Positions 32,609 through 58,027 of a stretch of 64,000 nt of DNA are shown here, in pieces. Position 1 is the stretch's first letter. Every line of letters begins with the position of its first letter. The notes below the pieces were generated by a model. That model ran no database searches. It saw nothing but the letters and a program-made list of their open reading frames with translations, and was not told where the DNA came from. The position numbers were made by a program, and so were the translations under genes. The stretch spans positions 496,001-560,000 of the forward strand of contig NZ_FXWG01000002.1 in the NCBI RefSeq assembly GCF_900177715.1. The letters are read 5' to 3'. The stretch comes from Altererythrobacter xiamenensis (lineage in GTDB: Bacteria > Pseudomonadota > Alphaproteobacteria > Sphingomonadales > Sphingomonadaceae).

Positions 32609-32624
32609 TTATCAGACCTGATAA
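32609..32624. promoter_or_regulatory. TetR-type operator 1 (TTATCA-N4-TGATAA)
   Basis: A perfect palindrome TTATCA GACC TGATAA lies between the divergent MpaB-like gene (start 32556) and acyl-CoA dehydrogenase (start 32646). The same motif occurs at 34995 and 35704, always in the control gaps of this cluster and adjacent to a TetR gene. Confidence 0.8.
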
Positions 32625-32645
32625 TCTTCGGCAAACGGATATCCC

Positions 32646-34966: not shown

Positions 34967-34992
34967 GCGCGTACCTATGCCGCCCGTCGCGG

Positions 34993-35012
34993 AATTATCA
35001 AGTCTGATAATT
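34993..35012. promoter_or_regulatory. TetR-type operator 2
   Basis: AATTATCA AGTC TGATAATT extends the TTATCA-N4-TGATAA motif to 8-bp arms. It lies upstream of the second acyl-CoA dehydrogenase gene (start 34966) and its last two bases overlap the stop codon of the TetR gene. Confidence 0.8.
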
Positions 35013-35664: not shown

Positions 35665-35703
35665 GGGACTTTCCCCGGCGCAAGGCAATTGCGCTTGCCA
35701 ATA

Positions 35704-35719
35704 TTATCAGCAATGATAA
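35704..35719. promoter_or_regulatory. TetR-type operator 3
   Basis: TTATCA GCAA TGATAA is a third copy of the cluster palindrome. It lies between the TetR gene (start 35664) and the TonB receptor gene (start 35752), so it could control both, including autoregulation. Confidence 0.8.
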
Positions 35720-35751
35720 AGACCCGGACGAGGTCATAGTGGAGAGGATCG

Positions 35752-38256: not shown

Positions 38257-38311
38257 AAAGGAATGGTTTCCGGCACCGTATTTGCTCATCCGCGGTGCCG
38301 GGAGCGACTTT

Positions 38312-40150
38312 ATGACTGAGACCAAGCCGCCCTTCAGCCCGCTTCCTCAGAAGCCACCTGCAACCGATGTGGAGCGCCGCGATGACGGATCGATTCTGAT
38401 CTGGTCCCGCCACAATCCAGCGGACGTTCCTGACAACCTCGCAGCGATCTTCCGCGAACGGAGCGAGGCGCATCCCGACCGATCGTTCCTCCTTCAACGC
38501 CAGCCGGGTCATGGACCATGGACCGGTGTCACTTGGGCAGAAGCGAGAACCTCCGCGGACTCTATTGCGCAGTGGCTGATCGATCACGGTTTCGGGGCCG
38601 ATGATCCGGTCATGGTTATTTCGGGCAATTCGCTCGAACACGGACTGCTGATGCTCGGTTGTTATACCGCAGGCGTCCCCATCGCTCCTGTCAGCGCGGC
38701 TTATTCGCTGATGTCGCAGGACCACGAAAAGCTTCTGCATTGCTTTCGCAAAATCGGCGCGAAGGCAGTGTTCGCCAAGGAGGGTGAATTGCACTCCGCT
38801 GCTCTGGCTCGGCTTCGGGAAGCAGCGCCCGATCTTGTGGTGGTGACCTGCGACGGCAGACCTGAAGGGACAGTCGATTTCACCGAACTTTGCCGGCTCG
38901 AGCCAACCTCGCAAGTCGATCGACGTGTCACGGCGATCGGCGCCGATACAGTTGGCAAATATCTGTTCACCTCGGGCTCTACCGGAATGCCGAAGTGCGT
39001 GCCGCAAACGCACGGCATGATGACGACGGTGATCGCAGGGCAGGAAGGTCTCGCGGAAGAGAGCCGCGACGAGCGCGATCCCCCCGTCACGCTGGAATGG
39101 ATGCCATGGAGCCACATCAGCGGCGGCAACATCTTCTTCAACGGCTGCATGTGGTCGGGGGGAACCATGTATCTCGACGAGGGTAAGCCGGTTCCGGGCA
39201 TGTTCGAGACGACGATCAAGAACCTTTACGAGATCTCGCCAACCGTCTTTGGCTCTGCGCCTGTGGCTTTCGCCATGCTCGCCGATGCCATGGAACAGGA
39301 CGAAAAATTGCGGGGCGCCTTCTTCGAGGATGTCATATCGCTCGGTTACGGCGGGGCTACACTGTCGGACGACCTCTATGACCGGCTGCAGGCACTCGCC
39401 ATTGCAGAAACCGGCAAGCGGATCCCGATCACGACGATGTACGGCGCGACGGAAACGCAAGGCATCACCATGGTGCATTGGGAAGTAGATCGCGTGGGCC
39501 TGATCGGCCTACCGATGCCCGGTATCACGCTGAAGCTCGTTCCGAATGGCGAAAAGATGGAGGTGCGAGTGAAGGGCGCCTCGGTCACGCCGGGCTACAA
39601 GGACGACGCAGAGAAGAATGCGCAAGCGTTCGACGAGGAAGGTTTCTACAAACTGGGAGATGCGGCCGACTTCCTCGACGAGGGTGATCCCGATCGCGGG
39701 CTGGTTTTCGACGGCCGTGTGACCGAAGATTTCAAGCTTTCGACCGGGACATGGGTTTCGGTCGGCACGCTCAGGCCGGAACTGGTGACTGCATGCAGTC
39801 CGCTCATGCATGATTGCGTAATTGCCGGTCAGGACCGGGAGCATATCGGCTTGTTAGTCTGGCCCAACCCTGCAGCTGCCCAGAAATACGTGACCGAAAG
39901 CGGCCCTGCCGGCCTCTCAATTCTCGCAAACGCCATCGCTGCGAGACTTGCGGCCTTCAACGCACAGTCCGGCGGCCATTCGCGGACAGTCAAAAGCATG
40001 GTGCTCTTGACGGAGCCGCCCTCGCTCGATGCCGGTGAGATCACCGACAAAGGCTACATCAACCAAGGCGCGGTTCTCTCCCAACGTGCAGAGGCGGTCG
40101 ATGCGCTGTACTCGGATGAAGGTTCGCCTCTTGTCCTGAAAATATCCTGA
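38312..40150 (+). CDS. Feruloyl-CoA synthase-like AMP-forming acyl-CoA ligase
   Basis: The 612-residue ANL-family enzyme adenylates a carboxylic acid and couples it to CoA. The P-loop YLFTSGSTGMPKCVPQTH, the YGATETQG motif, and a late TDKGYINQGAVL with the catalytic lysine are present. The overall resemblance, including VTPGYKDDAEKNAQAFDEEGFYKLGDAA, is to sphingomonad feruloyl-CoA synthases, which activate ferulate and other hydroxycinnamates. The ATG at 38312 follows GGGAGCG. It is 55 bases after the TonB receptor gene, probably in one operon. The substrate is inferred. Confidence 0.87.
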   Translation: MTETKPPFSPLPQKPPATDVERRDDGSILIWSRHNPADVPDNLAAIFRERSEAHPDRSFLLQRQPGHGPWTGVTWAEARTSADSIAQWLIDHGFGADDPVMVISGNSLEHGLLMLGCYTAGVPIAPVSAAYSLMSQDHEKLLHCFRKIGAKAVFAKEGELHSAALARLREAAPDLVVVTCDGRPEGTVDFTELCRLEPTSQVDRRVTAIGADTVGKYLFTSGSTGMPKCVPQTHGMMTTVIAGQEGLAEESRDERDPPVTLEWMPWSHISGGNIFFNGCMWSGGTMYLDEGKPVPGMFETTIKNLYEISPTVFGSAPVAFAMLADAMEQDEKLRGAFFEDVISLGYGGATLSDDLYDRLQALAIAETGKRIPITTMYGATETQGITMVHWEVDRVGLIGLPMPGITLKLVPNGEKMEVRVKGASVTPGYKDDAEKNAQAFDEEGFYKLGDAADFLDEGDPDRGLVFDGRVTEDFKLSTGTWVSVGTLRPELVTACSPLMHDCVIAGQDREHIGLLVWPNPAAAQKYVTESGPAGLSILANAIAARLAAFNAQSGGHSRTVKSMVLLTEPPSLDAGEITDKGYINQGAVLSQRAEAVDALYSDEGSPLVLKIS

Positions 40151-40313
40151 TCTTCGGCCGCAAGACTCAAGCTCGCGAACGAAATGGTTTGCATTTGTCG
40201 ATTTCCAGAAATGATCCAGAACGCGGTCGCTAATCGTTCGACAGCTTTCTGTATTTTAAGACCAATTGCAGACTGTCTGCTAACGGCCCAGTTCCTGTCG
40301 CTCCGCCCGAAGG

Positions 40314-40341
40314 CCGGGCGCTAGGCGCCCGGTTCCTTTTT
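40314..40341 (+). terminator. Hairpin terminator after the ligase gene
   Basis: CCGGGCGC and GCGCCCGG pair around TAG, and TTCCTTTTTC follows on the plus strand. It lies 164 bases after the ligase stop and overlaps the last codons of the convergent 74-residue gene. The 160 bases between show no gene. Confidence 0.65.
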
Positions 40342-40545
40342 CTCGTCGTCCAGCGGCGTGCGCAGGACGATCCGGCCATTGATCGGCACAACTTCAAGTT
40401 GAAGCGAGATTCCCTTGCGGTCGCGATGGAACCACGCGGCTCCGATCCGAGTCCAGAACCCTTTCTCGCCCTTGTTGGCGACATGCCAGGCGAGGAAGTC
40501 CGGTGGATTGGTCTCCTGCGCGGGTGCGGTGTTGCTGCGTGCCAT
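40321..40545 (-). CDS. Small conserved hypothetical protein
   Basis: The 74-residue product starts MARSNTAPAQ... and contains FLAWHVANKGEKGFWTRIGAAWFHRDRKG, then a strand-rich end ending in EKKEPGA. Proteins of this type are often found near mobilisation genes in sphingomonads, but no function is known to me. AAGGAAATCATC precedes the ATG at 40545. It marks the start of the mobile backbone after the catabolic cargo. Confidence 0.7.
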   Translation of the reverse strand: MARSNTAPAQETNPPDFLAWHVANKGEKGFWTRIGAAWFHRDRKGISLQLEVVPINGRIVLRTPLDDEKKEPGA

Positions 40546-40784
40546 GATGATTTCCTTTCGTGTCTGGTGGCTCGTTGCACCAACAGGAAGGCCGCACGGC
40601 CAAGGGCAGGATTCATGTCCAACACGGGTGAGCGGAGCGAACCGGCGCGGGCCGGACATTGAAGGCTGACCGAGTGCGGCCAATTGGGGTGCTCACAAAC
40701 GAAACCGCCTGATCGAAAAGGCATCCAAACAGATGGCAAACAGTCACACTTGCGCGCTGGATCTCTCTCGCCCAAACCTTCGCC

Positions 40785-41600
40785 ATGGCAAACGAGGGCA
40801 GTTCACGGAAACGCTGGAGCGAGGAGGAGACGGTGCTCGCGCTGTATCTCTACTTCCAGCTGCCGTTCGGAAAGCTGCACTCGGGCAATCCGGAAATCCA
40901 GGAGCTTGCCGCCGCGCTGGGGCGCACGAACAGCTCGGTCGCGATGAAGCTGTGCAATTTCGCCAGCCTCGATCCCAAGATTACCGACAGCGGGCGCAAG
41001 GGCCTGGACGGCGCCTCCAAGCTGGATCGCGCGACCTATTCCGAGTTCGGGCAGGATTGGACCGGTCTCGTATCGCGGGCGGAAGACTTGTGGACTGCCC
41101 AGGTCGGCCATTTTGAGCCAACACCCATTCCGTCACGCCTCAATGAGAAGCGCAGTGAATTCCGGTTCGAACCCTATCAAGGCGAGTCCACTACACAGGC
41201 ACTCGTGACCCAGCGCGTCGGCCAGGACTTCTTCCGCCGGGCAGTGCTCGCCAATTACGAAGAGACTTGCTGCATCACCGGTATCGCCGATCCGCGCCTG
41301 CTCACGGCGAGCCATATCAAGCCATGGGGGAAGGACAGCGACAACCGGCACAACCCCGCAAATGGTCTGCTGCTTTCAGCGACACTCGACCGCGCCTTCG
41401 ATCGCGGGCTCATTACGGTAGATCGCCAACGGCGCATCCGCGTCTCAAGGCAATTGCGCGAAAGCCAGAGCCGCGAGACGCGCGACTATTTCCGGCAATT
41501 CGAGAACGCAACGTTGCGGTCGGCAATCCGGTTCGATCCTGAACCCGCCTTTCTCGATTGGCACAACGAACACTGCTTCGTCGATCAACGCGCCGCCTGA
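40785..41600 (+). CDS. HNH endonuclease domain protein
   Basis: The 271-residue protein has an N-terminal region of about 130 residues with an R/K-rich helix start, and a C-terminal HNH nuclease. The nuclease part includes CCITGIADPRLLTASHIKPW and NRHNPANGLLLSATLDRAFDRGLI, with the His-Asn-His type residues. The fold resembles restriction-associated HNH enzymes. It lies alone at the left of the defence region and could be a restriction-like nuclease without a partner methylase. No strong ribosome site is seen at the ATG. Confidence 0.85.
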   Translation: MANEGSSRKRWSEEETVLALYLYFQLPFGKLHSGNPEIQELAAALGRTNSSVAMKLCNFASLDPKITDSGRKGLDGASKLDRATYSEFGQDWTGLVSRAEDLWTAQVGHFEPTPIPSRLNEKRSEFRFEPYQGESTTQALVTQRVGQDFFRRAVLANYEETCCITGIADPRLLTASHIKPWGKDSDNRHNPANGLLLSATLDRAFDRGLITVDRQRRIRVSRQLRESQSRETRDYFRQFENATLRSAIRFDPEPAFLDWHNEHCFVDQRAA

Positions 41601-41616
41601 CGTGTCAGGCGGCGCG
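41589..41616. terminator. Perfect hairpin at the convergent HNH/DUF3768 junction
   Basis: Two 13-bp arms (CGCGCCGCCTGAC and its exact complement) flank GT. The left arm covers the HNH stop codon. There is no T-tract, so it is either a Rho-assisted terminator or a structural element; it could stop both convergent genes. Confidence 0.5.
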
Positions 41617-41630
41617 CGGACTGCCTCCCC

Positions 41631-42014
41631 TCAATATTCAGAAGCCAGCATGATGGTGAGCACCCGCCGCGTAATAGCAGGATTGGCGGGGTCCTCGCTG
41701 CCGAACCGCAATTCTTGGTCGTAGGCATCGATCTTCCAGAACACGGTCTCGGCAGGTCGCGCCGGTCGCGTGGTCGTCCAGCGACCATCGATGTCCTTAT
41801 AGATCGCCCCGAAATCGCGCTCGCCATAAGGATCATTGTCCTGTGTGAAGGCGTCGAAGGTTTCGACCAGTTCGCGCACCCGCGACTGATCTTCTTCGGG
41901 CAAGGTTCGGAAGCCTTCGGTTGCAACCGCAACACAGGCAAGGCCCATCGCCTGCCGCGCCCTATCATTGAGCTGGGCAATCCTCTCGCTGCGGGAAAGG
42001 GTGTCAGCGGTCAC
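41631..42014 (-). CDS. DUF3768 family protein
   Basis: The 127-residue product matches DUF3768: IAQLNDRARQAM, then FDAFTQDNDPYGERDFGAIY, FWKIDAYDQELRFGSEDPANP and RVLTIMLASEY. The family is common on plasmids and mobile elements of alphaproteobacteria and has no assigned role. It overlaps the upstream 62-residue gene by four bases (ATGA type), so the two are translationally linked. Confidence 0.88.
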   Translation of the reverse strand: MTADTLSRSERIAQLNDRARQAMGLACVAVATEGFRTLPEEDQSRVRELVETFDAFTQDNDPYGERDFGAIYKDIDGRWTTTRPARPAETVFWKIDAYDQELRFGSEDPANPAITRRVLTIMLASEY

Positions 42015-42199
42015 TGCACCGCCCTCCCGCCATACTCACAAATATCGACCAGCTCGCCGAAATCCTCACGCTCACCCAGTTCCTCGGCAAGGCGCTGCAC
42101 CGTTCCGAACGGCAAGCCGTTCTCGTTGGCCAGCATCCGCAACCAGTCTTCGCGGCACTCGGCCCCGCAAGCACGGTAGTTCAAGATTGGATCACCCAT
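42011..42199 (-). CDS. Small hypothetical protein upstream of DUF3768
   Basis: The 62-residue product begins [28 protein letters not shown] and ends in a Glu/Asp-rich helix. Two cysteines near the N-terminus could bind metal. GGAGGGCAG lies upstream of the ATG at 42199, which is better than extending into the GC-rich leader. It overlaps the DUF3768 gene by four bases. Confidence 0.72.
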
Positions 42200-42825
42200 T
42201 TTCTGCCCTCCTTCGGCTGAAAGCCGCATCCGACACGCGGCATGCGGCCTGCCTTCCGGCGAGGATGGGAGGGGGAGGGAAAACCGGAATCGATGCCCTG
42301 GCGCGGGCCAGCGGGCGAAGCCCGCCACAACGGGGACGTCTATTTCCGGTTTCGGGAACGAGAGGGCAAAGCCCTTGGTGTTCCCGCCAGGGATCGCCCA
42401 GCGATCCAGCAGGAACGGCACCCTTGCAACGGCGCGAAGCCGACGGAGGCCCTGCGCGCGCGATCAGTGCGCCAGCGGGACTACGGCAATGAGAGAGGCA
42501 AGAGTGCCTGCGGGTTAGCTCAAAGATGCCGCGCCCTCAGGAGCGCAGAATGCGCGGGACAGAGCGCGTCCACCAGGAATTCCCGCTCCGCTTCAAACTG
42601 CTCCTGATCGTCACCCGGATGGGCCGGGACTAAAGGCCCGGTCTGCGCCAGCGGATAGAGCAGGTTGCCCGGCAGGGCAGCCCTTTGTGTTCCTCCTCAA
42701 AGAACGGCTATCATTGCCGCAACGAGATCCAAGACGAATACTCTATGGATTCCGAATTGTTTAGGCGTATTGGTAGCTTAAGCGAATGGCCGTAGGCCAA
42801 ATAAGGCGATCCGCGAGGGGGACAA
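42200..42825. other. Long gap before the defence genes
   Basis: The gap is 626 bases. The left two-thirds is GC-rich and holds several short inverted repeats (for example GGGATCGCCCAGCGATCC near 42394) but no convincing plus-strand gene. The minus strand at 42520-42696 is coding-like but lacks an ATG, and is listed separately. The right 100 bases are AT-richer and lead to GAGGGGGACAA, the ribosome site of the ATPase gene. Confidence 0.5.
42520..42696 (-). pseudogene. Coding-like stretch without an AUG start
   Basis: The frame reads (from 42675) LPGNLLYPLAQTGPLVPAHP, then an acidic EQFEAEREFLVDALCP region, and ends ALLRARHL before TGA at 42520-42522. The composition is protein-like, but the frame has no ATG, GTG or TTG at a sensible place before an upstream TGA (42697-42699). 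GGAGGAAC sits before a CTG at 42675. It is either a gene with a rare CTG start or a 5'-truncated remnant. Confidence 0.35.
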
Positions 42826-44169
42826 ATGGCCGGCGTAGAACCTCATATCAATGCCATGCCTACCAAGGCGTTCTTTGTAGATATGTTGGTGAAGGACATA
42901 CCTCTCGAGCGAGCTATACTCGATCTTGTCGACAACTGCATAGACGGAGCGAAGCGCCTTCGCCCGGCCGATGAACCGGACTTCACGGGACTACAGGTAG
43001 CCCTAAGCCTCAACGGTGAGGAGTTTGTAATCGAAGATAACTGTGGCGGTTTCGACGTGGCGACTGCCCAGAATTATGCCTTCAGATTCGGCAGGCCATC
43101 CGAGGCGAAATCGACTGACTACTCAATCGGTCAGTTTGGCGTTGGAATGAAGCGGGCCCTGTTCAAATTCGGTCGATACTTCGAAGTCCATTCAACGACA
43201 CGAAATCAGAAGTGGTCGATGACAGTAAATGTCAATGAATGGGAGGAGGCTCCGGAATGGGTTTTCGACTTCGACGAAATTATCGAAGATCAGGAATTCC
43301 CAATGGAGGACTGTGGGACAAGAATCATCGTCCGAGAACTGAGGCCGGAGGTCTCGTCGCGGTTTGGCGGAGAGTATTTTAGGCGCCAACTTTCTGAGAT
43401 GATACGCTCTCATCAAAGACAATTTTTAGCCTCCGGTCTCGCCATAGAGTTCGATGGGACCCACCTCACAAATACCGAATTGAAGATTAGAACGGGCGGT
43501 AAATTCAATCCGGCGATTGAGGAGTTTTCCTACGACGAAGAGACTGAAGCCCCAATTCTCGTCCGAATCGTTGCCGGACTATCTGAATCGATCCCATCAG
43601 AGGCAGGATGGTACATCGTCTGCAACGGTCGCGTGATCCTATCGGCTGATCGCTCGGACCAGACTGGTTGGGGTTCGGTGGCGGATCAAAAGGTCGGCAT
43701 TCCAAAATATCACAATCAATACGCTCGCTTTCGCGGCGTTGTCTTCTTCAACTGTAGATCGTCCAGCAAGCTTCCTTGGAACACAACGAAGACGGGTCTC
43801 GATGCATCGTCGGCTGTCTGGCAGGCCACATTCCCAAAAATGTTGGATCACACTCGAACGGTTATCAAGTTCCTCAATTCTCTAGATGAAGAAATTGAGG
43901 AGTACGGACGATCTGCAGCGCCATTGCTTTCAGCATTGAGCCGTGAAACGCAGGCACAGGAGGTAGAGAAATTCAAAGGGTCGCGGTCATTCTCCTGGAA
44001 TACTTCACCTCGTGCTCCAGGCCCGAAAATGACGAAGATCCAGTATTCGCGCGAGGCGAGTAAGATTCGCACCCTTATGACGGCCTTGGGCGTCGGAAGT
44101 GCAAAGGCAGTGGGCGAATCGACCTTTGACATAATCTACAAAGAGCAAGCCGAAGGCGAAGAAGAGTAA
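42826..44169 (+). CDS. GHKL-type ATPase (candidate defence protein)
   Basis: The 447-residue protein has a GHKL ATPase domain. The N-box is ERAILDLVDNCIDGA (28-42), the G1 motif EDNCGG (70-75) and the G2 motif GQFGVGMKR (102-110), as in MORC, MutL, Hsp90 and histidine kinases. The rest has no recognised domain. Its stop overlaps by one base the start of a methyltransferase-like gene. Base composition is less GC-rich than the core genes, suggesting transfer. Together with the next two genes it forms a candidate antiphage module; this is inference from position in a defence island. Confidence 0.85.
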   Translation: MAGVEPHINAMPTKAFFVDMLVKDIPLERAILDLVDNCIDGAKRLRPADEPDFTGLQVALSLNGEEFVIEDNCGGFDVATAQNYAFRFGRPSEAKSTDYSIGQFGVGMKRALFKFGRYFEVHSTTRNQKWSMTVNVNEWEEAPEWVFDFDEIIEDQEFPMEDCGTRIIVRELRPEVSSRFGGEYFRRQLSEMIRSHQRQFLASGLAIEFDGTHLTNTELKIRTGGKFNPAIEEFSYDEETEAPILVRIVAGLSESIPSEAGWYIVCNGRVILSADRSDQTGWGSVADQKVGIPKYHNQYARFRGVVFFNCRSSSKLPWNTTKTGLDASSAVWQATFPKMLDHTRTVIKFLNSLDEEIEEYGRSAAPLLSALSRETQAQEVEKFKGSRSFSWNTSPRAPGPKMTKIQYSREASKIRTLMTALGVGSAKAVGESTFDIIYKEQAEGEEE

Positions 44170-45137
44170 TGACGGCTAGCTATCAGCTCATTGATTATTC
44201 TGTGAGGCCGGCGAAGTTCGCCGAGCGCAAGATGCTCAGCGAAATGCTTGGTCGACTGAAGGTATTCGGTTCGCTCGAGACATACCGATATATTGGCTTC
44301 GGTTCGATCTGGTTCTCAGATTGTGTGCTTTTCCATCGCGCGCTCGGTATTGAGCATATGGTGTCGATTGAGCGCGAACTCGAGCACGAGGCTCGTTTCG
44401 AATTCAACAACCCATACCGTGGTATCGAACTCAGAATGGGCGAGTCCACAGATGTGTTGCCTGGACTCGATTGGAACCAAAGGTCAATCGTCTGGCTCGA
44501 CTATGACGACCCTCTTTCCCCTGCGATCCTCGACGATGTTCGAACTGTCGCAACAAGGGCGAGTCCAGGAACGGCGCTTATTGTTTCAGTGCAATCCCAT
44601 AAGCTTTTCGACAATCAAGACCCCGACGAGCAACCTATTCACATCGACGACCGCGCCAAGTTTCAGCAGTTTTTCGGCGATGCGCGCACACCTCCAGAAA
44701 TGGAGCCGGTCGATCTTCGAGGTTGGACATTATCGAGCACTTCTCGTCGCATTATCCGTTTGGAAATCGAAGAGGGATTACGCCAAGTGAACGCCGCGCG
44801 TGGGCAGGGGCAGAGGCTGCAATTCCGTCAAATTGCTGCCTTCGAATATGCCGACGGCGCGAAAATGACTACCATTGCCGGTGTCTTCACGGATGAAGGG
44901 CAGAATGGGTTGTTCGAAGGTGCAGGCTTCAGGGAGCTAGCGTTCTTCCGAGAGGGTGATGAGGCTCTTCGCATCAACGTTCCGATGCTTACACCCCGCG
45001 AAATGAGGCATTTGGACCGAAGCCTCCCTTGCCCCGACGGTGCCGAAATTGATCGAGGCCCAATTCCTCAAAGGGAGACAAATCATTACGCGAAGCTCTA
45101 TCGCTATCTCCCGAATTTCGCATCTTATGAACTCTAA
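44169..45137 (+). CDS. Methyltransferase-like partner of the GHKL ATPase
   Basis: The 322-residue protein is not firmly classified. It reads like a Rossmann methyltransferase: YRYIGFGSIWFSD (39-51) as motif I, MVSIERE with Glu68 as the acidic end of strand 2, RMGESTDVLPGL, VWLDYDDPL (Asp111) as motif IV and PGTALIVSVQSH. A C-terminal extension of about 120 residues follows. There is no signal or membrane segment. Overlap with the ATPase gene implies coupled translation and probably a complex. A role as a modification enzyme or NAD/SAM-binding sensor is possible; neither is shown. Confidence 0.75.
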   Translation: MTASYQLIDYSVRPAKFAERKMLSEMLGRLKVFGSLETYRYIGFGSIWFSDCVLFHRALGIEHMVSIERELEHEARFEFNNPYRGIELRMGESTDVLPGLDWNQRSIVWLDYDDPLSPAILDDVRTVATRASPGTALIVSVQSHKLFDNQDPDEQPIHIDDRAKFQQFFGDARTPPEMEPVDLRGWTLSSTSRRIIRLEIEEGLRQVNAARGQGQRLQFRQIAAFEYADGAKMTTIAGVFTDEGQNGLFEGAGFRELAFFREGDEALRINVPMLTPREMRHLDRSLPCPDGAEIDRGPIPQRETNHYAKLYRYLPNFASYEL

Positions 45138-45183
45138 TGCTGTTGGGGAACTCGGGTGCATGCCTTCAGATTGCAGCCTTGCA

Positions 45184-45303
45184 ACTGAGACTCAGTAATG
45201 TCTCTGTAGGTTACACTCCTGACAGAGTGGAAAGGCCGTGATTGGGGCCGAAGCCCGGCAGAGCAAGAAGGCATATTCTGAAACCCCTTTCAATTTGAAG
45301 GGG
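45184..45303. other. Intergenic hairpins before the DUF6119 gene
   Basis: The 235-base gap contains a perfect 13-base palindrome ACTGAGACTCAGT (45184-45196) and a second imperfect hairpin CCCCTTTCAA/TTTGAAGGGG (45284-45303). They may act as terminator or promoter elements separating the ATPase pair from the DUF6119 gene. No gene is seen in the gap. Confidence 0.4.
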
Positions 45304-45372
45304 GGCAACTTCATTTCAATTCGTTTCTCTTTACACTTCTATGGGTTAGGTTCCATCGAATAGGAAAGCAGA

Positions 45373-47001
45373 ATGGCCCAAGAGCCCGAAAAAAAGATCA
45401 AATATTCGATTCACCTCGCGTCGGAGTCCGTGAAGGACCTCGCCGATTTCCTCACAGAAAATGCAAGAGCTAAATCGATTCAGATTGAATTGCGCAAGGC
45501 CTTTCCGTTTGAGTGCGCCTTGTATCACAAGCCGACTATCAACTCGGTGCCCGGTTGGGCGACGAAGCTCGATGATTTCTTCGAAATTGACGGGAAGATT
45601 CGGTCGGCTTCATCGGCCGCTGTGGTGCTGTTCAAATGCAAGAACAGGGTATTCGCCTGCTCGTACGGACATGGCCATACCATGCTCAATAGCGATAGGC
45701 GGGAGAATGATTTCGGGTTGTTGGTGGCGGCCAATTCACTTTCAGACGAGAATGTAAAACTGGTCGAGAAAGCCAACCTCGGTAGTGTCATCCGCGATGC
45801 AACTCAGGCGGCGGGTATTACGAGGCTTCAGGAGTTCAATGTCGATAGAGCGCTGAGCCTTGTTCGGAAACTTAGCGGCAACGCGAAGGACGGTAACTCC
45901 GCGCTTAGTGGAGCCAGTTCGATTACACTGATATCCGACAAAGATGTCGGCGAGCTCCATGAGCTCGGAGAAGCGCTCCTAGATTTATACAGCGCGACCA
46001 GCTACAAAAAGACGGCGTTTGGGATTATCGACAAGATCAAACCCGTTCTTGATGTGATGCTCGTAAAAAAGCTCGACCAGGCGCTTCTGGACGATTTGAA
46101 TTCCGAAGATCCGTCCTTCGAGCTTGGGGCACCAGAAATCGATACCGAGCCAATCGGCTACATGACGATATCGGGAGCAAAGTCTCGGGCACAATACCCC
46201 GACATCTCGCTAGCTACGTTTCTTGATGTGGTTGGCGATCTGGAAACGACGGACGATCTTCACGCGTACTGCGTCGTGACCCACAACATCGATGGAACGC
46301 ATCGCTTGAAGGAATGGACGCTTTACAGGGGGCTTGTTGGTTCAATCGTCGATGGGACGAAAAGATATGCTCTGAATGAGGGGAAATGGTACCGGATCGA
46401 TGAGGCTCTACAAAAGTCGGCCAACGACGCGTTCGCGAAGGCATCGAAGGGTTGGGACAAGGCATACTTGCCGTGGCCAATCATTACGCGCGGGAAAAAG
46501 GGTAAGACCTCTGTTTATGAACCAGAGGGCGACTTCAACAAGCGTGTAGCGAACGCCGATCCTAACTTGTTGCTATTTGACGCGGACCTCGTTCCAATTC
46601 CCAACACGCCGGGGCCGGGTGTCGAAATTTGCGACCTATTCGAGGTGAAGCAAAAAAGGCTCATCCACGTCAAGAAGAGCGGTCGGCGATCAAGCGTGAT
46701 CAGCCACTTCCTCACTCAGGGCATGAACTCAGCCAAATTTTTGCGAACATATGACCAGATACGGAATGAGTTTTTCAACCGCTTGGAGAAGCTCGTCGAC
46801 CCAGCGACACTCGCTGATCTTCAGAACTCATTCCCATACGATTGGACTGTCGAATTCAAATTTGGGGATTTCCCCAATCAGTCAGGTGACTACACGATCC
46901 CCTTCTTTTCGCGTGTGACGCTCGATGAAACAAAGCGCGAAATCGAAGCCCTTGGGTACAAGGCTGTCGAGGTGTCTTTCATCAAGCTATCTAACCCGTA
47001 A
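45373..47001 (+). CDS. DUF6119 / TIGR04141 family protein
   Basis: The 542-residue protein resembles the sporadically distributed TIGR04141 (DUF6119) family. Recognisable parts are FACSYGHGHTML near residue 95, the GKWYRID segment, and CDLFEVKQKRLIHVKKSGRRSSVISHFLTQGMNSA in the C-terminal third. Such proteins occur in defence islands beside restriction systems; the biochemical role is unknown. The lysine/arginine pattern of VKKSGRRSS is compatible with nucleic-acid contact or nuclease activity, which is speculative. It is convergent with the restriction genes, whose end is 15 bases away. Confidence 0.8.
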   Translation: MAQEPEKKIKYSIHLASESVKDLADFLTENARAKSIQIELRKAFPFECALYHKPTINSVPGWATKLDDFFEIDGKIRSASSAAVVLFKCKNRVFACSYGHGHTMLNSDRRENDFGLLVAANSLSDENVKLVEKANLGSVIRDATQAAGITRLQEFNVDRALSLVRKLSGNAKDGNSALSGASSITLISDKDVGELHELGEALLDLYSATSYKKTAFGIIDKIKPVLDVMLVKKLDQALLDDLNSEDPSFELGAPEIDTEPIGYMTISGAKSRAQYPDISLATFLDVVGDLETTDDLHAYCVVTHNIDGTHRLKEWTLYRGLVGSIVDGTKRYALNEGKWYRIDEALQKSANDAFAKASKGWDKAYLPWPIITRGKKGKTSVYEPEGDFNKRVANADPNLLLFDADLVPIPNTPGPGVEICDLFEVKQKRLIHVKKSGRRSSVISHFLTQGMNSAKFLRTYDQIRNEFFNRLEKLVDPATLADLQNSFPYDWTVEFKFGDFPNQSGDYTIPFFSRVTLDETKREIEALGYKAVEVSFIKLSNP

Positions 47002-47016
47002 TCGAACGATGACCGG

Positions 47017-47808
47017 TCAATCGCGATAGTCCCGTATCGCGTTCTGATCGAGTTTCTTTGCCGGTACGAGTTTGTAGTGCCGCTCTTCGACGACTTTGAT
47101 TTCCTCGTTCTGTATCGTCAACTCGAAGAGCGCGACGATATCGTCGTCCATGAATTGCGCCGCAATCGCCTTGCACCGCATGCCTGGGAATTTCTGCTCA
47201 ACGAACCTGATATCTTGCGTCGCCTGCACGATGCCGATCTGGTCCTTCCCGCCTTTGGCCTGGACAGGAATGATGTAGTGGCAGCCGCGCTTGTCGATCC
47301 CGACGTAGAGCTCATCGATCTCGATCTGGCCGATCCCTTTGACGGTCGTGCGTAGATGGTTTTGCAGGCTGTAGGTGGTGAGGCTAAGAAAGGTGTCTAT
47401 CAAGCGATTATACCGGACAATCGCCAAGAGCGCTTGCTCGTCGTCGAGCGCGTAGGCGCGAATGACCTCGGGCGTGGCATCGGGGATATCGATGCGAGCA
47501 AGATCATCGCGCGGAATGACGCGGCTGATCTTGACGAGTGAAAAGCGGTAACGTGATCGCCCTGCAAGCTCGATAATCCATTCCATCCCTTCAGGCTGGG
47601 TCGCGACGATCTGGGCGGGCAGATCGTTCCTGAACCGGAAGGAATAGATCACATCCCCAACATTGTCCGGAAGTGCGATATCCAATGTCACGGCAGCGTC
47701 TTTGATTTCCTGCCGGGTGAAATCCAACGCGGTTGCCCCAGGGCTATAGTGATCTAAGAAAATCTTCTCGATCAGCGCCTCGTAGCGGTTTGGACTCTTC
47801 TTAGGCAT
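47017..47808 (-). CDS. Probable type II restriction endonuclease
   Basis: The 263-residue protein has a PD-(D/E)xK-like core in its second half: EIDE (163-166) and, after a strand, VQAKGG with Gln183 and Lys185. Q-x-K instead of E-x-K is seen in some restriction and repair nucleases. It overlaps by eight bases the C5-cytosine methylase gene, so the two are translated together, as expected for a restriction-modification pair. The recognised sequence cannot be told from the sequence. Confidence 0.75.
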   Translation of the reverse strand: MPKKSPNRYEALIEKIFLDHYSPGATALDFTRQEIKDAAVTLDIALPDNVGDVIYSFRFRNDLPAQIVATQPEGMEWIIELAGRSRYRFSLVKISRVIPRDDLARIDIPDATPEVIRAYALDDEQALLAIVRYNRLIDTFLSLTTYSLQNHLRTTVKGIGQIEIDELYVGIDKRGCHYIIPVQAKGGKDQIGIVQATQDIRFVEQKFPGMRCKAIAAQFMDDDIVALFELTIQNEEIKVVEERHYKLVPAKKLDQNAIRDYRD

Positions 47809-49132
47809 ATGCAGTCTGCTCAGCCATGCGTTCGCGTTCGATATCGACCTGCTTGCGCTTAGTGGCTCCGCTTTTGCGGTCGCGGCGGCTAGGTAGCGGT
47901 TCGACGCCGAAATAATCGGATGCGCCAGTCAGATCGAAAGACAGCAACTCTTCCTCGCCAAGTGGCAAGACTTGCTCCGGCCTGAGCGGCTTGGCGCCGA
48001 GCGCCTTCATCACTTGTGCCGCAACGGCCCTGGCGAGAGGCGGGGGCACAGCATTTCCGATCTGCCGCGCGCCATGCCACTTGGTGATATTGAAACGAAA
48101 CCAGTCGGGAAAGCCGTGCAAGCGCGCCATTTCTCGTACAGTTACGCAACGATCATAGCGGTAGTGGATCGGCCTCGGGCTCGTGAAGGCTCCTCGTGCG
48201 CCGTCCGTACCGGCGCGCAGCGTATTCGATACGCCGTCATGCGCGAGCTTGTAAAAGCGGCTGATCGGTTCAACCGATCCGGGTTCGGTTTCGGCAAAGC
48301 GATTACGGGAAATGTCAGTATGCTGCGTGCGGTAGCTCGATGTCAGGCTGGTCGGGTCCCAATCTCGAACATATCCGAAGTGCCACGCATCGTTTGTTAA
48401 ACAACGCAACTCAGCGGCGTAATCCGAAGGAGGGCCGAATGAGGTTGTCCGGACAGAATCGGTATTGGCCAGCGTTTGGAACCGGTCGGCATCAGGAAGA
48501 TCGTCAAGCGCGTCCTCGGCAGTCGGGCCGTCCGGAAGGCCTGCAATTGCCTTGTTGCGTCCAGCAAGATTGGTGAATGGCGCAGGATAATCCGGCAATT
48601 TCTCTCCCTTGCGGCACCCGAAGAGAATGAGGCGCTCGCGGAACTGCGGCGTGCCATAATGACCGGCATTAAGCACCTTCCAGGGCAGGCGCACCTCGTA
48701 TCCGACATCATCGAAGGCCTCGACCAGCTCCTTTAGGAAGGCTTTATGTTTTCCCACCGTCAATCCTTTGACGTTTTCGAAAACGAACGTGCGGGCGCGA
48801 AGCTCAGAAACGATCCGCACAAAATCCAGCACAAGCTTGTTACGTGGATCGGCAAGGACACGGTGACCGATGAGCGAAAACCCTTGGCACGGCGCGCCGC
48901 CAAACACGCAATCGACAGTCGTGTTGCCGATCCCGGCGAACTTGCGGATGTCATCGCCGCTAAGGCCAGCGACAGATTGCGGAATGACAGTTGTGTCGGG
49001 GAAATTGTATTTATGGACTGCGCAATGAACGGGATCGATTTCGACCGCTGCGGCAATATCGAATCCGGCCTGCTCGAAACCGAGGCTCAAGCCTCCCGCC
49101 CCTGCAAATAAGTCTATCCCCACCGGTCTCAT
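47801..49132 (-). CDS. DNA (cytosine-5) methyltransferase
   Basis: The 443-residue enzyme has C5-methylase motif I (DLFAGAGGLSLGFEQAGF) and the catalytic motif IV GGAPCQGFS with Cys82. Motif VI ENV lies at 119-121, motif VIII appears as QFRERLILFG and motif X as QIGNAVPPPLA. The target-recognition region lies between about residues 190 and 340. It protects the host from the adjacent endonuclease. A Vsr gene upstream, in the same direction, would repair T-G mismatches from deaminated 5-methylcytosine. Confidence 0.95.
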   Translation of the reverse strand: MRPVGIDLFAGAGGLSLGFEQAGFDIAAAVEIDPVHCAVHKYNFPDTTVIPQSVAGLSGDDIRKFAGIGNTTVDCVFGGAPCQGFSLIGHRVLADPRNKLVLDFVRIVSELRARTFVFENVKGLTVGKHKAFLKELVEAFDDVGYEVRLPWKVLNAGHYGTPQFRERLILFGCRKGEKLPDYPAPFTNLAGRNKAIAGLPDGPTAEDALDDLPDADRFQTLANTDSVRTTSFGPPSDYAAELRCLTNDAWHFGYVRDWDPTSLTSSYRTQHTDISRNRFAETEPGSVEPISRFYKLAHDGVSNTLRAGTDGARGAFTSPRPIHYRYDRCVTVREMARLHGFPDWFRFNITKWHGARQIGNAVPPPLARAVAAQVMKALGAKPLRPEQVLPLGEEELLSFDLTGASDYFGVEPLPSRRDRKSGATKRKQVDIERERMAEQTAYA

Positions 49133-49210
49133 GCACTGCTGTCCTTCAATTTGGTTCTCGTCGATTCATCATTCAGTCTATCGTGGGCTGCCCGGCCTGT
49201 CGATCGAAAT

Positions 49211-49618
49211 TTAGGATTCATCCACAAAGGCTTGTAGGCGCGCTGCGAGCTGTTCGGATTCTTTGATTTCGCATTGCCAAAGGACGAGCACTTGCCACCC
49301 CAACGACTCAAGTTGTTCTTTTTTTGTTCTATCACGTTCCACGTTACGTGCAAGTTTGGGAAGCCAATAATCTGGTCGGGATTTGGGCGGTTGGCCTTTG
49401 GCGCATCCATGGGCATGCCAAAAGCAACCATGAACGAAGATTACCTTCCGGTGGCGGGGTAGGACGATATCAGGTTTGCCAGGTAAGTCTTTGCGGTGAA
49501 GTCGGAAGCGAAGGCCCAAGGCGTGCAGTATCTGCCTAACCTTCATTTCCGGCCCGGTGTTCTTGGTGCCAACGGCTTGCATGATGCGCCGGCGCTGTTC
49601 GGGGCTGCGCGTATCCAC
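49211..49618 (-). CDS. vsr: Very short patch repair endonuclease
   Basis: The 135-residue protein matches Vsr: RRIMQAVGTKNTGPEMKVRQILHALGLRFRLH, then DLPGKPDIVLPRHRKVIFVHGCFWHAHGC with the catalytic Asp and zinc-binding Cys/His residues, and LQRNVERD-like LARNVERDR. It nicks 5' of T in T-G mismatches formed at methylated cytosines. The start is GTG at 49618. It precedes the C5-methylase on the same strand by 78 bases, a common partnership. Confidence 0.93.
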   Translation of the reverse strand: MDTRSPEQRRRIMQAVGTKNTGPEMKVRQILHALGLRFRLHRKDLPGKPDIVLPRHRKVIFVHGCFWHAHGCAKGQPPKSRPDYWLPKLARNVERDRTKKEQLESLGWQVLVLWQCEIKESEQLAARLQAFVDES

Positions 49619-49667
49619 CGGAGCAATCTACCTTCCGGCTGATGCCAAATGAAAGTAGATTTCTAAT

Positions 49668-50546
49668 TCAGTCCGAACGCAAGAACTCAGCAGCTTTGGC
49701 CGCCGCGCTCGCGGCAGTGAAGATCGCCCGGTTGTCGGCCCTAAGCACCTTCAGCCAGCTCGCCAGGTAGCTGGCGTGATCCGGGCGCGGGCTGGCGGAA
49801 AGGCCAAGGTCGCCGCAGAGGAATGCTGAACCAAGCTCGGCCACCAGTTCTTCCATGGCGTAGGCATCGTCGCCGAACCGCTTGCCGAATGTCCGGGCAA
49901 GGCGGTGGTCAGCGCCAGACCAATGGATGAGCTCGTGCATCAAGGTTGCGTACCAGTTCTGCGCCGCGCTGCCGCTGGCCGTTGCGAAGAACCGCTCGCG
50001 GTCTGGCATGGTGATCGTGTCGGTAGAAGGGGTGTAGTGAGCGCTATCGCCATGGATGCGCACGCTGGCACCTGTGCCCGCAACGAAGCTGTCCGCCTGC
50101 GGGATAGGGTCGAAGTCTTCGCCGTCCGGCACTTCGGGCAGAGCGTAGCCCTCGACCTGGCTGGCGTTAAACACGTGCGAGGCCTGCGCGAAGATGCGGG
50201 TCGAGCTGTCTCTTTCCTCGGCTTGATCGTCATTGCGCTTATCAAAGACCTTGTAGAACACGATGGGCGAAGCCTTCTCGCCCTTGCGAACCTGAGCACC
50301 GAGTGACTGCCACTGGCGATAGGTCGCCCAAAGACCGTGCCCGAAGTCTTGCGCTTCGGCGCTCGCCCAAAGGGCAAGTACGTTGACGCCGCGATAGGCT
50401 TTCCCGGTCGCTGCATTTTTGGGTCGCGAAAGCGGCGCGGTGCTGCGATGCCAAGGGAGCGAAAACTTGTCGGTGCCGCGTTCAAGGGCGGCGATGATCT
50501 GGTTGGTGATCGTGTCGTAAATGCTGGCGGTTGTGGTGCTAGCCAT
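49668..50546 (-). CDS. ArdC-like antirestriction zincin protein
   Basis: The 292-residue protein has the ArdC N-terminal ssDNA-binding domain (IITNQIIAALERGTDKFSLPWHR, KGEKASPIVFYK) and a zincin-like metalloprotease domain with HELIH (in LMHELIHWSGADHR). ArdC protects incoming single-stranded element DNA from restriction during conjugation. GAAGGATC precedes the ATG. It is the first gene of the mobilisation block; the relaxase is downstream on the same strand. Confidence 0.92.
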   Translation of the reverse strand: MASTTTASIYDTITNQIIAALERGTDKFSLPWHRSTAPLSRPKNAATGKAYRGVNVLALWASAEAQDFGHGLWATYRQWQSLGAQVRKGEKASPIVFYKVFDKRNDDQAEERDSSTRIFAQASHVFNASQVEGYALPEVPDGEDFDPIPQADSFVAGTGASVRIHGDSAHYTPSTDTITMPDRERFFATASGSAAQNWYATLMHELIHWSGADHRLARTFGKRFGDDAYAMEELVAELGSAFLCGDLGLSASPRPDHASYLASWLKVLRADNRAIFTAASAAAKAAEFLRSD

Positions 50547-50770
50547 GGTGAAGATCCTTCGTCCAATCGTTGGGAACGCGGATGAAGGGACGGGCCGGAT
50601 TGGCCGGGCGGGTCAGCGGTTACGCGGAGCAGGCAACACGGGAGGGCTTCAGCCCGAATGGAGCGGGCAGGCTGTTGATCCGCCCGGTACGGCCTGTCGA
50701 AGAGGAGCAGTTCATTCCAACGGCAGGGCGAAGGACGCCATGGCCTGCCACCGCCGGGGCTATTCGATCA
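50547..50770. other. Gap between ArdC and relaxase genes
   Basis: The 224 bases are GC-rich. An open frame on the plus strand is not protein-like and no ribosome site precedes it. Nothing else is seen. Confidence 0.4.
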
Positions 50771-53518
50771 TCATCCCATCCCAGCACCCATTGCCTTTGA
50801 CTTTCCGGCTTCGGGAGTGCTCGCGGTCATGGCCGTCTGCTTCTCGCCTGCGCGCTCGTAGATCGCGCGGACAAGCCGGTCCTTGTCGTCGGTGACAACC
50901 ACCGCCTCGGCCTTTGCGCGCGATAGCGCGACATAGAGCATCTTCTGATCAACCAGATTGGTGGATCGGCTGTCTGCATGGATCAGGACGCGTTCGGCGG
51001 TCTGGCCCTGCGCGGCGTGGGCAGTCTGGACATAGGCGTGGCGCAAATGGGCGTCGCGAGGATCGGAGAGATCGAGCGTCTGCTCGCGTCCGTTGGCGAG
51101 CTTCACCGTTGCCCGGTCACGGGCGGGATCGATGCGTGTGACGGTCCCACCAAGGCCATTGACCCGCCCCGCCTCGCGGTCGTTGCGAGTGAACTGCACC
51201 CGGTCGCCTGTGCGCAGCTCCATCGGTTTCGGCTCGAAGGCTTCGGCTTTGCCAGCGCCCCACTGCCGGGGATGCCAGTCAAGCGACTGTCCATCGCGGC
51301 CTTCGAGGGCAATGCGCCCGCGCTCGGGATCGATGGCGGCAATCGCAAAGCTCTCGCCCCGGCGCACGTCTTTGGCGGCATAGTCGCGGCTGAACCGGAC
51401 GACATCGCCGATGGCATAGCTTGCCGCCTCGCGCGCTTCGGCACGGGTCAGACCTTTCGCTTCAAGAGCGTGGAACCGGACCACATCAGCAGACAGCTCG
51501 CCGCGTCCGGTCAGCTTTGCTCGGATCATGTCGGTGAGCCGGTCGCGGCCTTCGCGCGATGGTTCGATAACCAGCGTCCGGGCGCGCTCTGTTGGTGCCA
51601 TGGCCAGATAATGCCGGGCCATCGCCCCAAGGCGCTCATCGGGCATTGCGCCTTCGATCACCTTGCCGCCGCCACGTTCAAGCGCGGCCAGGGCTTTGCC
51701 CGCATGGCCCTCTATCGAGGCCATGACGGCTTCGCGGGTCGCGGCATTGGTCTGTCGGACCACGTCGGCAAGTTTCACGGTCGCCATGCCTGCCTCCTGC
51801 ATCTGGGCAAAGGCTGCACCCGCTCCGACCGAGCCCAGCTGCTTGACATCGCCGACCAGAACAAGCCGGGCTCCGGCCTTGTCGGCGCGGGTCATGAGTT
51901 TCGCCATATCGTGGGCCGAAAGCATTGAGGCTTCATCGACGATCCAGACGGCGTCCTTCCCCGCTGTTTTCGCCTCGGGCGCGAGCAAATGCCGCGCCAC
52001 GGTATCTCCGCGCAGACCTAGCGCCTCGCCAAGCACGGTTGCTGCCGATGCGGTTGGCGCGAGCGCAGTTACGGCAAGCCCATGTCGCCGGGCCTCGCGT
52101 GCATAGGTTGCGAGCACTGTCGTGGTCTTGGCCGTCCCGGCATAGCCCTGTACGGCGGCGATCCGGTTACGCGAAGTGAGCAGGTCTGCGGTCGCCCGCT
52201 TCTGGTCCTCGCTCCAGGCGTAGCCGGATCGGGCTGATTGCCGCGCGGCGCGTTCGATGGTCCGTGCTGCTGCCACCGGCGTGGCAAGCGATTGCGCCAT
52301 GCCACGCCCGGCTTGCTCAAGTCGCAACATGGTGCGCTCGGTCTCGATGGCCTGCGGCGTCGTGAAACCGAAAAAATCCGCCCCGCGTCTGTCCAGGCAA
52401 GTGCGCGGGACTAGCTCGCCACTCTCTCCGGCCTCGGCGATCGCAGCAGTGATGGCGCCGTGCCCGGCCCTGCCGAATGCGAAGTCCCCGGCCTCGCGCG
52501 CCAGCGTGCTGGAAGAAAACACCGCCTCGCGTTCGGACAGCTTGGCAGCAGCCCAAGCCACGGCCTGCCTAGCCAGCAATTCCGGGCTGACCGTTGCTTC
52601 GCTGCTCTTGGCCCGCTCTCTCGCTTGACTGATCAGCCTGTCTCGCGCTGCATTGTCGAACCCGTTGGTATCGGCAGTCGCCCGCCAGTCGGCCCGCAAG
52701 GTGCGATGATCCGTGCTGGTCTTGGCCTCGCGCGTATCGAGCGCGGCAATCTGCTTTTCGGCGGCACTGGCTTCCGCGCGGCTCGTGCCGCGCTCGACAA
52801 GCCGGGCATCGATCGCTGCGGTGCGCTGGCTCAGCGCATCGATGGCCTTCTCCGGAACACCTGCGATCTCGAAGAGCGAGTCTTTGGCCACTTCGATCTT
52901 GTATCCCAGCGCGGCAACGCCGTGCGCCAGTTCCTGCCGGTAGATCGCACCGATCTCCTTTTGCAGCTGGTAAAAGGCGCGTGGCTCCAGACTGCGCCAG
53001 TTGCCATCCTTGTCCTGCGTGGCGTGGATCACGACGGCATGGGTATGCAACTGCGGGTCCTGCGCCCGGCTTGTGGCATGGCGGAAGGTGGCGATGGCGA
53101 GATTGCCGGTCGCTTCGCGCCGGACCTCGCCGCCCTGCCTGATCCGTGTTGCCGCCATGTGCTTTTCGACATGGGCGAGAGCCACTTTCACCGCCGCTCT
53201 ATGCGCCTTGATCAGCCGCTTGTCTCCGGCAACCTCGGCCATGATCGAGACCGACTTGGGTGCGGACAAGGTGATATCCCAGCCAGGCCGGTGCTCGACC
53301 TTGCCATCGCGGGTTGTGCCGAGTTGCTGTCCGGCAATCCGGCCTTCGAGCAATTCGGCAAACTTGTCGCGATCGACCTCGCCTGACAGGCCCAGCTTCT
53401 CCGCTGCCTCACCAAACCATTCGGACGGAGCCCTGCCGCCTTCGGCATAGTAATCGTCGGCCTCGTAGTAGCTCGCGGCCTGACCGGCGCTCGACAGGGC
53501 AGAGACCGAAGCAACCAT
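50771..53518 (-). CDS. MobF-family conjugative relaxase (TrwC/TraI type)
   Basis: The 915-residue protein has an N-terminal relaxase domain with the active tyrosine pairs YY at 17-18 and 23-24, and the HUH histidines in FRHATSRAQDPQLHTHAVV (about 145-165). A C-terminal RecD-like helicase follows, with Walker A GYAGTAKTTT (about 460-468) and a late VALSRAK motif. It nicks at oriT and unwinds the transferred strand. The start at 53518 overlaps the TraD stop (TGATG). A longer frame upstream would lie inside TraD and is rejected. Confidence 0.95.
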   Translation of the reverse strand: MVASVSALSSAGQAASYYEADDYYAEGGRAPSEWFGEAAEKLGLSGEVDRDKFAELLEGRIAGQQLGTTRDGKVEHRPGWDITLSAPKSVSIMAEVAGDKRLIKAHRAAVKVALAHVEKHMAATRIRQGGEVRREATGNLAIATFRHATSRAQDPQLHTHAVVIHATQDKDGNWRSLEPRAFYQLQKEIGAIYRQELAHGVAALGYKIEVAKDSLFEIAGVPEKAIDALSQRTAAIDARLVERGTSRAEASAAEKQIAALDTREAKTSTDHRTLRADWRATADTNGFDNAARDRLISQARERAKSSEATVSPELLARQAVAWAAAKLSEREAVFSSSTLAREAGDFAFGRAGHGAITAAIAEAGESGELVPRTCLDRRGADFFGFTTPQAIETERTMLRLEQAGRGMAQSLATPVAAARTIERAARQSARSGYAWSEDQKRATADLLTSRNRIAAVQGYAGTAKTTTVLATYAREARRHGLAVTALAPTASAATVLGEALGLRGDTVARHLLAPEAKTAGKDAVWIVDEASMLSAHDMAKLMTRADKAGARLVLVGDVKQLGSVGAGAAFAQMQEAGMATVKLADVVRQTNAATREAVMASIEGHAGKALAALERGGGKVIEGAMPDERLGAMARHYLAMAPTERARTLVIEPSREGRDRLTDMIRAKLTGRGELSADVVRFHALEAKGLTRAEAREAASYAIGDVVRFSRDYAAKDVRRGESFAIAAIDPERGRIALEGRDGQSLDWHPRQWGAGKAEAFEPKPMELRTGDRVQFTRNDREAGRVNGLGGTVTRIDPARDRATVKLANGREQTLDLSDPRDAHLRHAYVQTAHAAQGQTAERVLIHADSRSTNLVDQKMLYVALSRAKAEAVVVTDDKDRLVRAIYERAGEKQTAMTASTPEAGKSKAMGAGMG

Positions 53519-56426: not shown

Positions 56427-56468
56427 GGGGGAGATGCTTTCTGCGGGCCATTGCCCGCCTTGGAGGGG

Positions 56469-58020: not shown

Positions 58021-58027
58021 CGCAGCG

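Follow-up and report, generated by a model that had tools for sequence, protein, structure and literature searches.

The presence of MORC ATPases in restriction-modification loci has been predicted from gene neighbourhoods (Iyer, Abhiman and Aravind, 2008; PMC2292703). These prokaryotic loci are laterally mobile and combine a GHKL ATPase bearing the motif GhXhhpXXRhl with cytosine DNA methylases, Vsr and restriction nucleases; about 70% of them include a superfamily 2 (SF2) helicase, and a helicase-less minority has been described (PMC2292703). The literature met on bacterial MORC proteins in restriction loci consists of predictions and includes no tests, the searches not having been aimed at experiments. 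A locus with the same kinds of genes lies in Altererythrobacter xiamenensis, in a stretch of 64,000 nucleotides (contig NZ_FXWG01000002.1, positions 496,001 to 560,000) referred to here as the window, and it differs from the described loci in that the obligate companion of its ATPase is a protein of the family PF20553 (Methyltransf_35, MT35). To judge from the sequences compared, the ATPase and the PF20553 protein form a strict pair with joint descent. The constant PF20553 partner appears to be new, as does a three-gene cassette found in phages (5-methylcytosine (m5C) DNA methyltransferase, MORC ATPase and Methyltransf_35), whereas MORC ATPases in restriction loci are known. The main text of the 2008 paper presents neither a second methyltransferase-fold partner nor a three-gene phage cassette, and an unnamed gene in its figures or additional file could be the partner. 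An earlier reading of the window, made from the sequence only, had noted that GHKL ATPases occur in some antiphage systems; GHKL/MORC ATPases in such loci are indeed a described theme (PMC2292703). The two genes of the pair are as follows.

42826..44169, plus strand: GHKL ATPase, MORC type, 447 amino acids; HATPase_c_3 (PF13589), Pfam E-value 4.7e-13
44169..45137, plus strand: Methyltransf_35 partner, 322 amino acids; PF20553, Pfam E-value 2.3e-105

Extracts of PMC8011034 describe a HEF_HK and Response_reg_2 pair, in which a GHKL protein and a linked second gene stand beside m5C methyltransferase and Vsr genes; the window pair differs in consisting of HATPase_c_3 and PF20553 proteins, and Pfam searches of both proteins, with E-values up to 1, found neither HEF_HK (PF19191) nor Response_reg_2 (PF19192). 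Type II restriction-modification systems with Vsr are matched by the restriction endonuclease (REase)-like, m5C methyltransferase and Vsr genes on the minus strand of the window, and differ in that the classical systems work without an ATPase and without a second protein of methyltransferase fold. In DISARM, self DNA is marked by methylation and ATPases act as effectors. The likeness to DISARM lies in a single case, Microvirga terrae plasmid pR24_2 (L100 6564-8978), where the pair, confirmed by Pfam (PF20553, HATPase_c_3), is found inside a DISARM operon with the order drmD, MmeI-like gene, ATPase, Methyltransf_35, drmA, DUF1998 gene and drmC. By contrast, no drmA, drmB or drmC was found among the window genes scanned (Pfam, PADLOC and NCBIfam near the pair; Pfam for the larger genes of the island), a search for drm genes as such being limited to the window. 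Neither PADLOC nor NCBIfam gave a system name for the ATPase or its partner, the matches to MzaB and to sacsin-type proteins being below any cut-off. Extracts of PMC3710099 note GHKL-paraMORC fusions in restriction-modification loci, and those of PMC12137116 describe a GHKL-Shedu defence protein. CapK/CapS (extracts of PMC13373217) was considered and set aside, its STAS and HTH domains not being found in the window ATPase by Pfam. A preprint on YprA/DISARM (PMC12458937) makes no mention of GHKL, HATPase or MORC. No paper of relevance came up for DUF6119, TIGR04141 or Methyltransf_35, and literature searches on GHKL with Vsr, paraMORC, DISARM with GHKL, HATPase_c_3/antiphage and O-methyltransferase with Vsr gave no title recognised as the partner or the cassette among the matches listed, most subscription papers lying outside the search.

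The pairing is very regular. In a species-level scan (one genome each), a relative of PF20553 is encoded at 46 loci; most are in Proteobacteria and a few in Acidobacteriota, Bacteroidota and Actinomycetota (phyla as read from the record titles). The species scan, random genome samples and the window together gave 52 loci with a usable partner gene; L049 and L050, in which the contig ends inside the partner and the ATPase is present, were dropped, and L025 and L054, seemingly one record, were counted twice. A same-strand ATPase gene lies upstream of the PF20553 gene in 49 of these 52 loci, and the other three (L025, L037, L054) start at a contig edge. The two genes overlap by 4 or 1 nucleotides in 39 loci and are more than 200 nucleotides apart in one; L051, which resembles the viral contig L093, is a seemingly interrupted locus with the ATPase 1438 nucleotides from the partner. 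In the window, the overlap is a single base (TAATG at 44167-44171). The distance matrices of the two genes are strongly correlated (r=0.935 for 49 loci, a value reached by none of 2000 permutations), also inside two clades (0.84 and 0.98). PF20553 was found in 5/385 genomes of the window's class and in 5/398 of its phylum (two of the former being already in the latter sample), and an ATPase profile (E-value of 1e-10 or lower) picked out, among the 398, the same five genomes and two others. In G309, an ATPase adjoins an m5C methyltransferase without PF20553 (locus L089). The sequence-only reading had given three open reading frames (ORFs) on one strand, the third encoding a DUF6119 protein, and had taken the first two, with their one-base overlap, for likely partners; the gene positions and the overlap are as it had said, and the partnership is borne out by the comparison of loci. 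A copy of the pair on psymA of S. meliloti KH46 (L101 3671-8816) looks broken, the ATPase and a shortened Methyltransf_35 ORF being split by other ORFs.

The window ATPase carries the GHKL motifs (N-box D33/N37/D40, D71-C-G-G, IGQFGVGMK and G164) and, at residue 261, the MORC motif in the form GWYIVCNGRVI. D33, N37 and D71 are present in 48/48 aligned ATPases and K322 in 49/49. MutL and Hsp90 have a glutamate at the position equivalent to the invariant Asp33. The MORC motif GhXhhpXXRhl, which in the family lies in an S5-type domain, was found in all 49 ATPases beside MT35 and in 32/32 of set A2, against a background of 6/980 shuffles and 3/482 other genes; it is absent from both ATPases found without MT35 (L089, L090), and is present in 11 of 12 ATPases from viral contigs, plasmids and phages, that of L096 lacking it. 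Pfam assigned HATPase_c_3 and a sub-threshold HATPase_c to the window protein, with no kinase helper domain, and no sequence relative was found in the PDB at E-values up to 0.1. The 2008 definition combines this motif with the GHKL motifs, an S5-type second domain with a basic finger residue and a restriction-modification neighbourhood; by the motifs and the neighbourhood, the ATPases beside PF20553 appear to belong to the prokaryotic MORC family. A second, longer GHKL ATPase with the MORC motif (605 and 584 amino acids) lies between the m5C methyltransferase and the pair in L021 (6230-8047) and L022 (6745-8499). The ORFs upstream of the ATPase vary from locus to locus; a homologous protein of 166-173 amino acids, whose N-terminus looks by eye like a membrane segment, is encoded just upstream of it in L031, L036 and L043.

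Structures of the ATPase and of the partner were predicted as single chains, and the partner was modelled with a class I S-adenosylmethionine (SAM)-methyltransferase fold. Its SAM-binding residues are kept (GxG, E68 as the acidic motif II, and WLD), and its top fold matches include base-modifying RNA methyltransferases; no sequence relative was found in the PDB at E-values up to 1. DNA amino-methyltransferases have a motif IV of the form (D/N/S)PP(Y/F). This motif was not found in the partner, which has WLDYDDP in the window and WLDYANAN, WLDFTSPG and others in divergent members. On the modelled fold, the partner is a putative SAM methyltransferase.

The genes around the pair point to restriction. 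In the window, the following nuclease and methyltransferase genes lie close to it.

47017..47808, minus strand: type II REase-like protein, family B; PADLOC PDLC03404, E-value 4.6e-133
47801..49132, minus strand: m5C DNA methyltransferase, Dcm-type; PF00145 E-value 3.8e-63; PDLC03326 type II methyltransferase E-value 1.3e-174
49211..49618, minus strand: Vsr endonuclease; PF03852 E-value 6.6e-31; TIGR00632 E-value 3.7e-48
40785..41600, plus strand: HNH endonuclease, upstream of the pair; PF13391 E-value 2.2e-15; PDLC04132 E-value 5.4e-92

The sequence-only reading was right to place a restriction-modification set beside its trio: these genes show the type II layout, with a PF00145 methyltransferase adjoining a PDLC03404 REase-like gene. 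Linkage was counted where the sequence extends over 4 kb upstream of the pair and over 2.5 kb downstream, which holds for 42 loci, among them the window but neither L025 nor L054; neighbours were counted as relatives by profile, not each confirmed by Pfam. Within 5 kb of the pair, 39/42 loci encode a relative of the window's m5C methyltransferase and 28/42 encode Vsr (no profile match in the other 14), which places the pair in defence-type loci, as the sequence-only reading had supposed, and speaks against its idea of a module separate from the restriction set. In a control limited to 10 DUF6119 loci, none had an m5C methyltransferase or Vsr (Fisher p 1.8e-8). Other neighbours are less constant: REase-B relatives occur within 5 kb in nine of the 42 loci, HNH relatives in eight (window counted), a protein family termed A in eight, and at least one of the three in 22. 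Eighteen loci have the methyltransferase without A, B or HNH, and seven of these also lack Vsr. Neighbour clustering, which left out L034, L049 and L050 and used labels given by eye, found few further clusters near the pair in at least three loci beyond the pair itself, methyltransferase, Vsr, A, B and HNH, namely recombinase-like, terminase-like and small membrane-type proteins and a likely spurious ORF; about 25 other neighbours scanned with Pfam and PADLOC were mostly of ordinary families or of none.

For the window REase-like protein, Pfam gave no family above its cut-off and comparison with PDB sequences only weak matches, seemingly by chance. Residues E163-I-D165-E, P181 and K185 are invariant among the seven members of the REase B family and may be read as a predicted PD-(D/E)xK site. 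The window methyltransferase has weaker PADLOC matches to the DruM and DrmMII models. The HNH endonuclease may be a further part of the unit; in L020 and L067, an HNH relative directly adjoins the ATPase. Family A (about 280-310 amino acids) lies beside the methyltransferase, for example in L008 (11088-11960), with relatives in L009, L024, L027, L028, L035, L040 and L046; an assignment of this family as a nuclease, made by eye, was withdrawn, as Pfam (one member) and PADLOC (five members) gave no match.

The m5C methyltransferase and Vsr co-vary (matrix correlation 0.70), whereas the pair co-varies with them weakly (0.20-0.23; 0.21-0.22 for Vsr), and within clades at 0.18-0.50 (0.36-0.50 for the methyltransferase). 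The loci are therefore composed of two largely exchangeable blocks, ATPase with partner and methyltransferase with Vsr. Single comparisons illustrate this in both directions. Between the window and L007 (Erythrobacter sp. HI0063, with a similar island), the pair proteins are 98% identical and the methyltransferases 70%; the DNA at 40306-45202 of the window (HNH, ATPase and partner) is 92% identical to that of L007, the HNH-to-partner stretch being common to the window, L006 and L007 at about 92%, and where REase, methyltransferase and Vsr align, identity is 67-72%. Between L026 and L027, identity is 55% for the partner, 68% for the ATPase, 90% for the methyltransferase and 94% for Vsr.

Mobile elements also carry the pair: it was found on nine viral contigs, and the plasmid and phage collections gave two plasmid records and one phage record matching the window's partner. 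Seven of the nine contigs (L091-L096 and L099) have an m5C methyltransferase beside the pair and no match to the Vsr, family A, REase B or HNH profiles; the other two, L097 and L098, carry both Vsr and family A. Neighbouring genes are Zot-like, as in filamentous phages, in L091, L093 and L094, and encode tail, lysis or integrase functions in L092, L095, L096 and L099, so the cassette has entered unrelated phages. Pseudomonas phage PfAC20 has the ATPase, the partner, a cytosine methyltransferase and an ORF of 105 amino acids (ORF4) in a row, likewise with no match to any of these four profiles; according to extracts of PMC11878078, its authors counted the methyltransferase in an incomplete system.

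The best explanation of these observations, with about an even chance of being right, is that the MORC-type ATPase and its obligate partner of SAM-methyltransferase fold would constitute a transferable accessory or effector unit of DNA-methylation-based restriction, serving the REase, m5C methyltransferase and Vsr set in the window. Its comparative base is the strict pairing, the joint descent, the linkage to m5C methyltransferases and the conservation of the ATP- and SAM-binding residues. In the presence of ATP, proteins of the MORC and MutL type dimerise and act as clamps. By analogy, ATP would close a MORC dimer clamp on DNA; the likeliest input would be the DNA-methylation state, because the commonest neighbour is an m5C methyltransferase, and the SAM-bound partner may be the substrate-reading or modifying subunit. 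The complex would load on DNA without the host m5C mark and hand it to a local nuclease or, in the three-gene cassettes, block it without one. Because no nuclease profile matches the phage cassettes, the pair may be able to act as the effector by itself. It is tentatively conceivable that m5C methyltransferase, MORC ATPase and Methyltransf_35, a set present even in filamentous phages, suffice for restriction with no dedicated endonuclease; m5C would mark self and the ATP-driven clamp, with its SAM-bound partner, would recognise unmarked DNA and block or destroy it. Several observations weigh against this proposal, in its wider or its narrower form. REase B or HNH occurs in 15/42 loci and family A in eight, and the pair may thus be auxiliary. 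Three of the 42 loci (L010, L020 and L069) have no nearby m5C methyltransferase, and two of these, L010 and L069, have SF2 helicase genes. A missing profile match is not a missing nuclease: L048, counted as nuclease-free, has a weak HNH_5 match beside Vsr (E-value 0.0079), the sequence of L093 stops at its methyltransferase, the gene that follows the pair in L096 has a TIR-effector match (E-value 9.9e-8), and ORF4 of PfAC20 has no PADLOC match that would assign it. The weak correlation of the pair with the methyltransferase and Vsr exceeds that of most shuffles (reached by 0, 8, 0 and 1 of 2000), and the two blocks are not fully independent. The partner residues after WLD vary, leaving any methyl acceptor undefined by sequence, and the clamp and its DNA contact rest on homology.

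The same fold and neighbours can be read in other ways. The pair might work on the modification side, the partner adding a second methyl mark or helping the m5C methyltransferase to finish, with the ATPase as a motor; the three-gene cassette would then shield phage DNA from host enzymes. The retained SAM fold and contact residues, the RNA base-modifying enzymes among the top fold matches and the frequency of the methyltransferase (39/42) fit this explanation, which is nevertheless unlikely: motif IV of DNA amino-methyltransferases is absent, divergent members do not keep the DDP that follows WLDY, an ATPase is not normally required by m5C methyltransferases, and the co-variation of the pair with the methyltransferase is weak. 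Slightly less probable still is a control device, in which the partner would sense SAM or the DNA-methylation state and the ATPase would license or silence the restriction set, so that the host does not cut its own DNA when SAM runs short. Such a role would suit the SAM fold and the occurrence of the pair beside differing genes and inside a DISARM operon, and extracts of PMC8011034 propose the HEF_HK and Response_reg_2 pair beside m5C methyltransferases as a signalling system; the pair recurs, however, in phage cassettes without a profile match to a nuclease needing control, and the Pfam domains of the ATPase (HATPase_c_3 and a sub-threshold HATPase_c) include neither HEF_HK nor another kinase helper. 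Among the modification, sensing and repair explanations, the least favoured, and an improbable one, is that of a MutL-like helper of Vsr, correcting T:G mismatches from deaminated 5-methylcytosine, because 14/42 loci (and 7/9 viral contigs) have no Vsr match. The GHKL/MutL kinship of the ATPase, the presence of Vsr within 5 kb in 28/42 loci and a functional MutL-Vsr interaction in E. coli (cited in the reference list of PMC2292703) argue for it, whereas Vsr co-varies with the methyltransferase and not, except weakly, with the pair.

The pair gives one helicase-less MORC branch a constant partner, and the phage cassettes, with just three genes, are of a size that allows direct cloning and testing. 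If the pair restricts DNA with m5C as the self mark, it would represent a principle of restriction that dispenses with a classical endonuclease, and would serve as a model for the original role of MORC; if the endonuclease-free reading of the cassettes is true, they would be a bacterial forerunner of eukaryotic MORC-based silencing at methylated DNA.

The third gene of the sequence-only reading lies directly downstream of the pair.

45373..47001, plus strand: DUF6119/TIGR04141 protein, passenger, 542 amino acids; PF19614, Pfam E-value 6.1e-119

That reading proposed a three-gene defence module, which as an entity independent of the adjoining restriction set is very improbable. The same strand, close spacing and low GC content in the window favour it, but DUF6119 is near the pair in 1/42 loci, that one being the window, and is absent from L007, where the pair region is 92% identical at the DNA level. 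The survey of three-gene co-occurrence that had been suggested gave the same answer: DUF6119 was found in 11/398 genomes of the phylum, and two of these also had PF20553, the window's own and G302, in which the two genes are on different contigs. None of the 10 other DUF6119 loci has the pair, an m5C methyltransferase or Vsr. From these gene contents, the DUF6119 gene appears to be a passenger and not part of the pair. A scan of its neighbours (10 proteins, drawn from six of the 10 loci outside the window) showed that it is sometimes found among type I restriction-modification genes (L072 and L075; nearby in L074), and viperin-like matches were obtained among the neighbours in L078. In L075 (4597-10812), it lies between the type I restriction and specificity genes, on one strand, with a 4-nucleotide overlap with the restriction gene.

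The whole set of genes lies on a mobile element, as the sequence-only reading had claimed, with a repeat from a tRNA-Leu gene at both ends, an integrase, a relaxase and a coupling protein.

28347..59236: genomic island in tRNA-Leu, 30.9 kb, with a 25-bp direct repeat at both ends
28285-28371: tRNA-Leu gene; its last 25 bp are the island-end repeat
28549-29751: phage-type integrase
49668..50546, minus strand: ArdC-like antirestriction protein, in the same island; PF08401 and PF18818 (Pfam)
50771-54136: TrwC-type relaxase
53518-55338: type IV coupling protein
59402-60625: second integrase gene, just beyond the island

The trio had also been described as AT-richer than its surroundings. Its GC content (0.505-0.534 over 43001-47000) is indeed lower than that of most of the flanks (0.57-0.66 over 1-43000, 0.56-0.58 at the restriction genes in 47001-50000 and 0.60-0.66 over 50001-57000), but low values are not unique to it, with 0.53-0.60 beyond 57000. 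The ArdC-like gene lies next to Vsr in the window, and an ORF of 936 amino acids directly follows Vsr in L007. The 25 bp of the tRNA-Leu 3' end are found at 28347-28371 and again at 59212-59236, and the second integrase gene beyond 59236 suggests that islands are arranged in tandem at this site.

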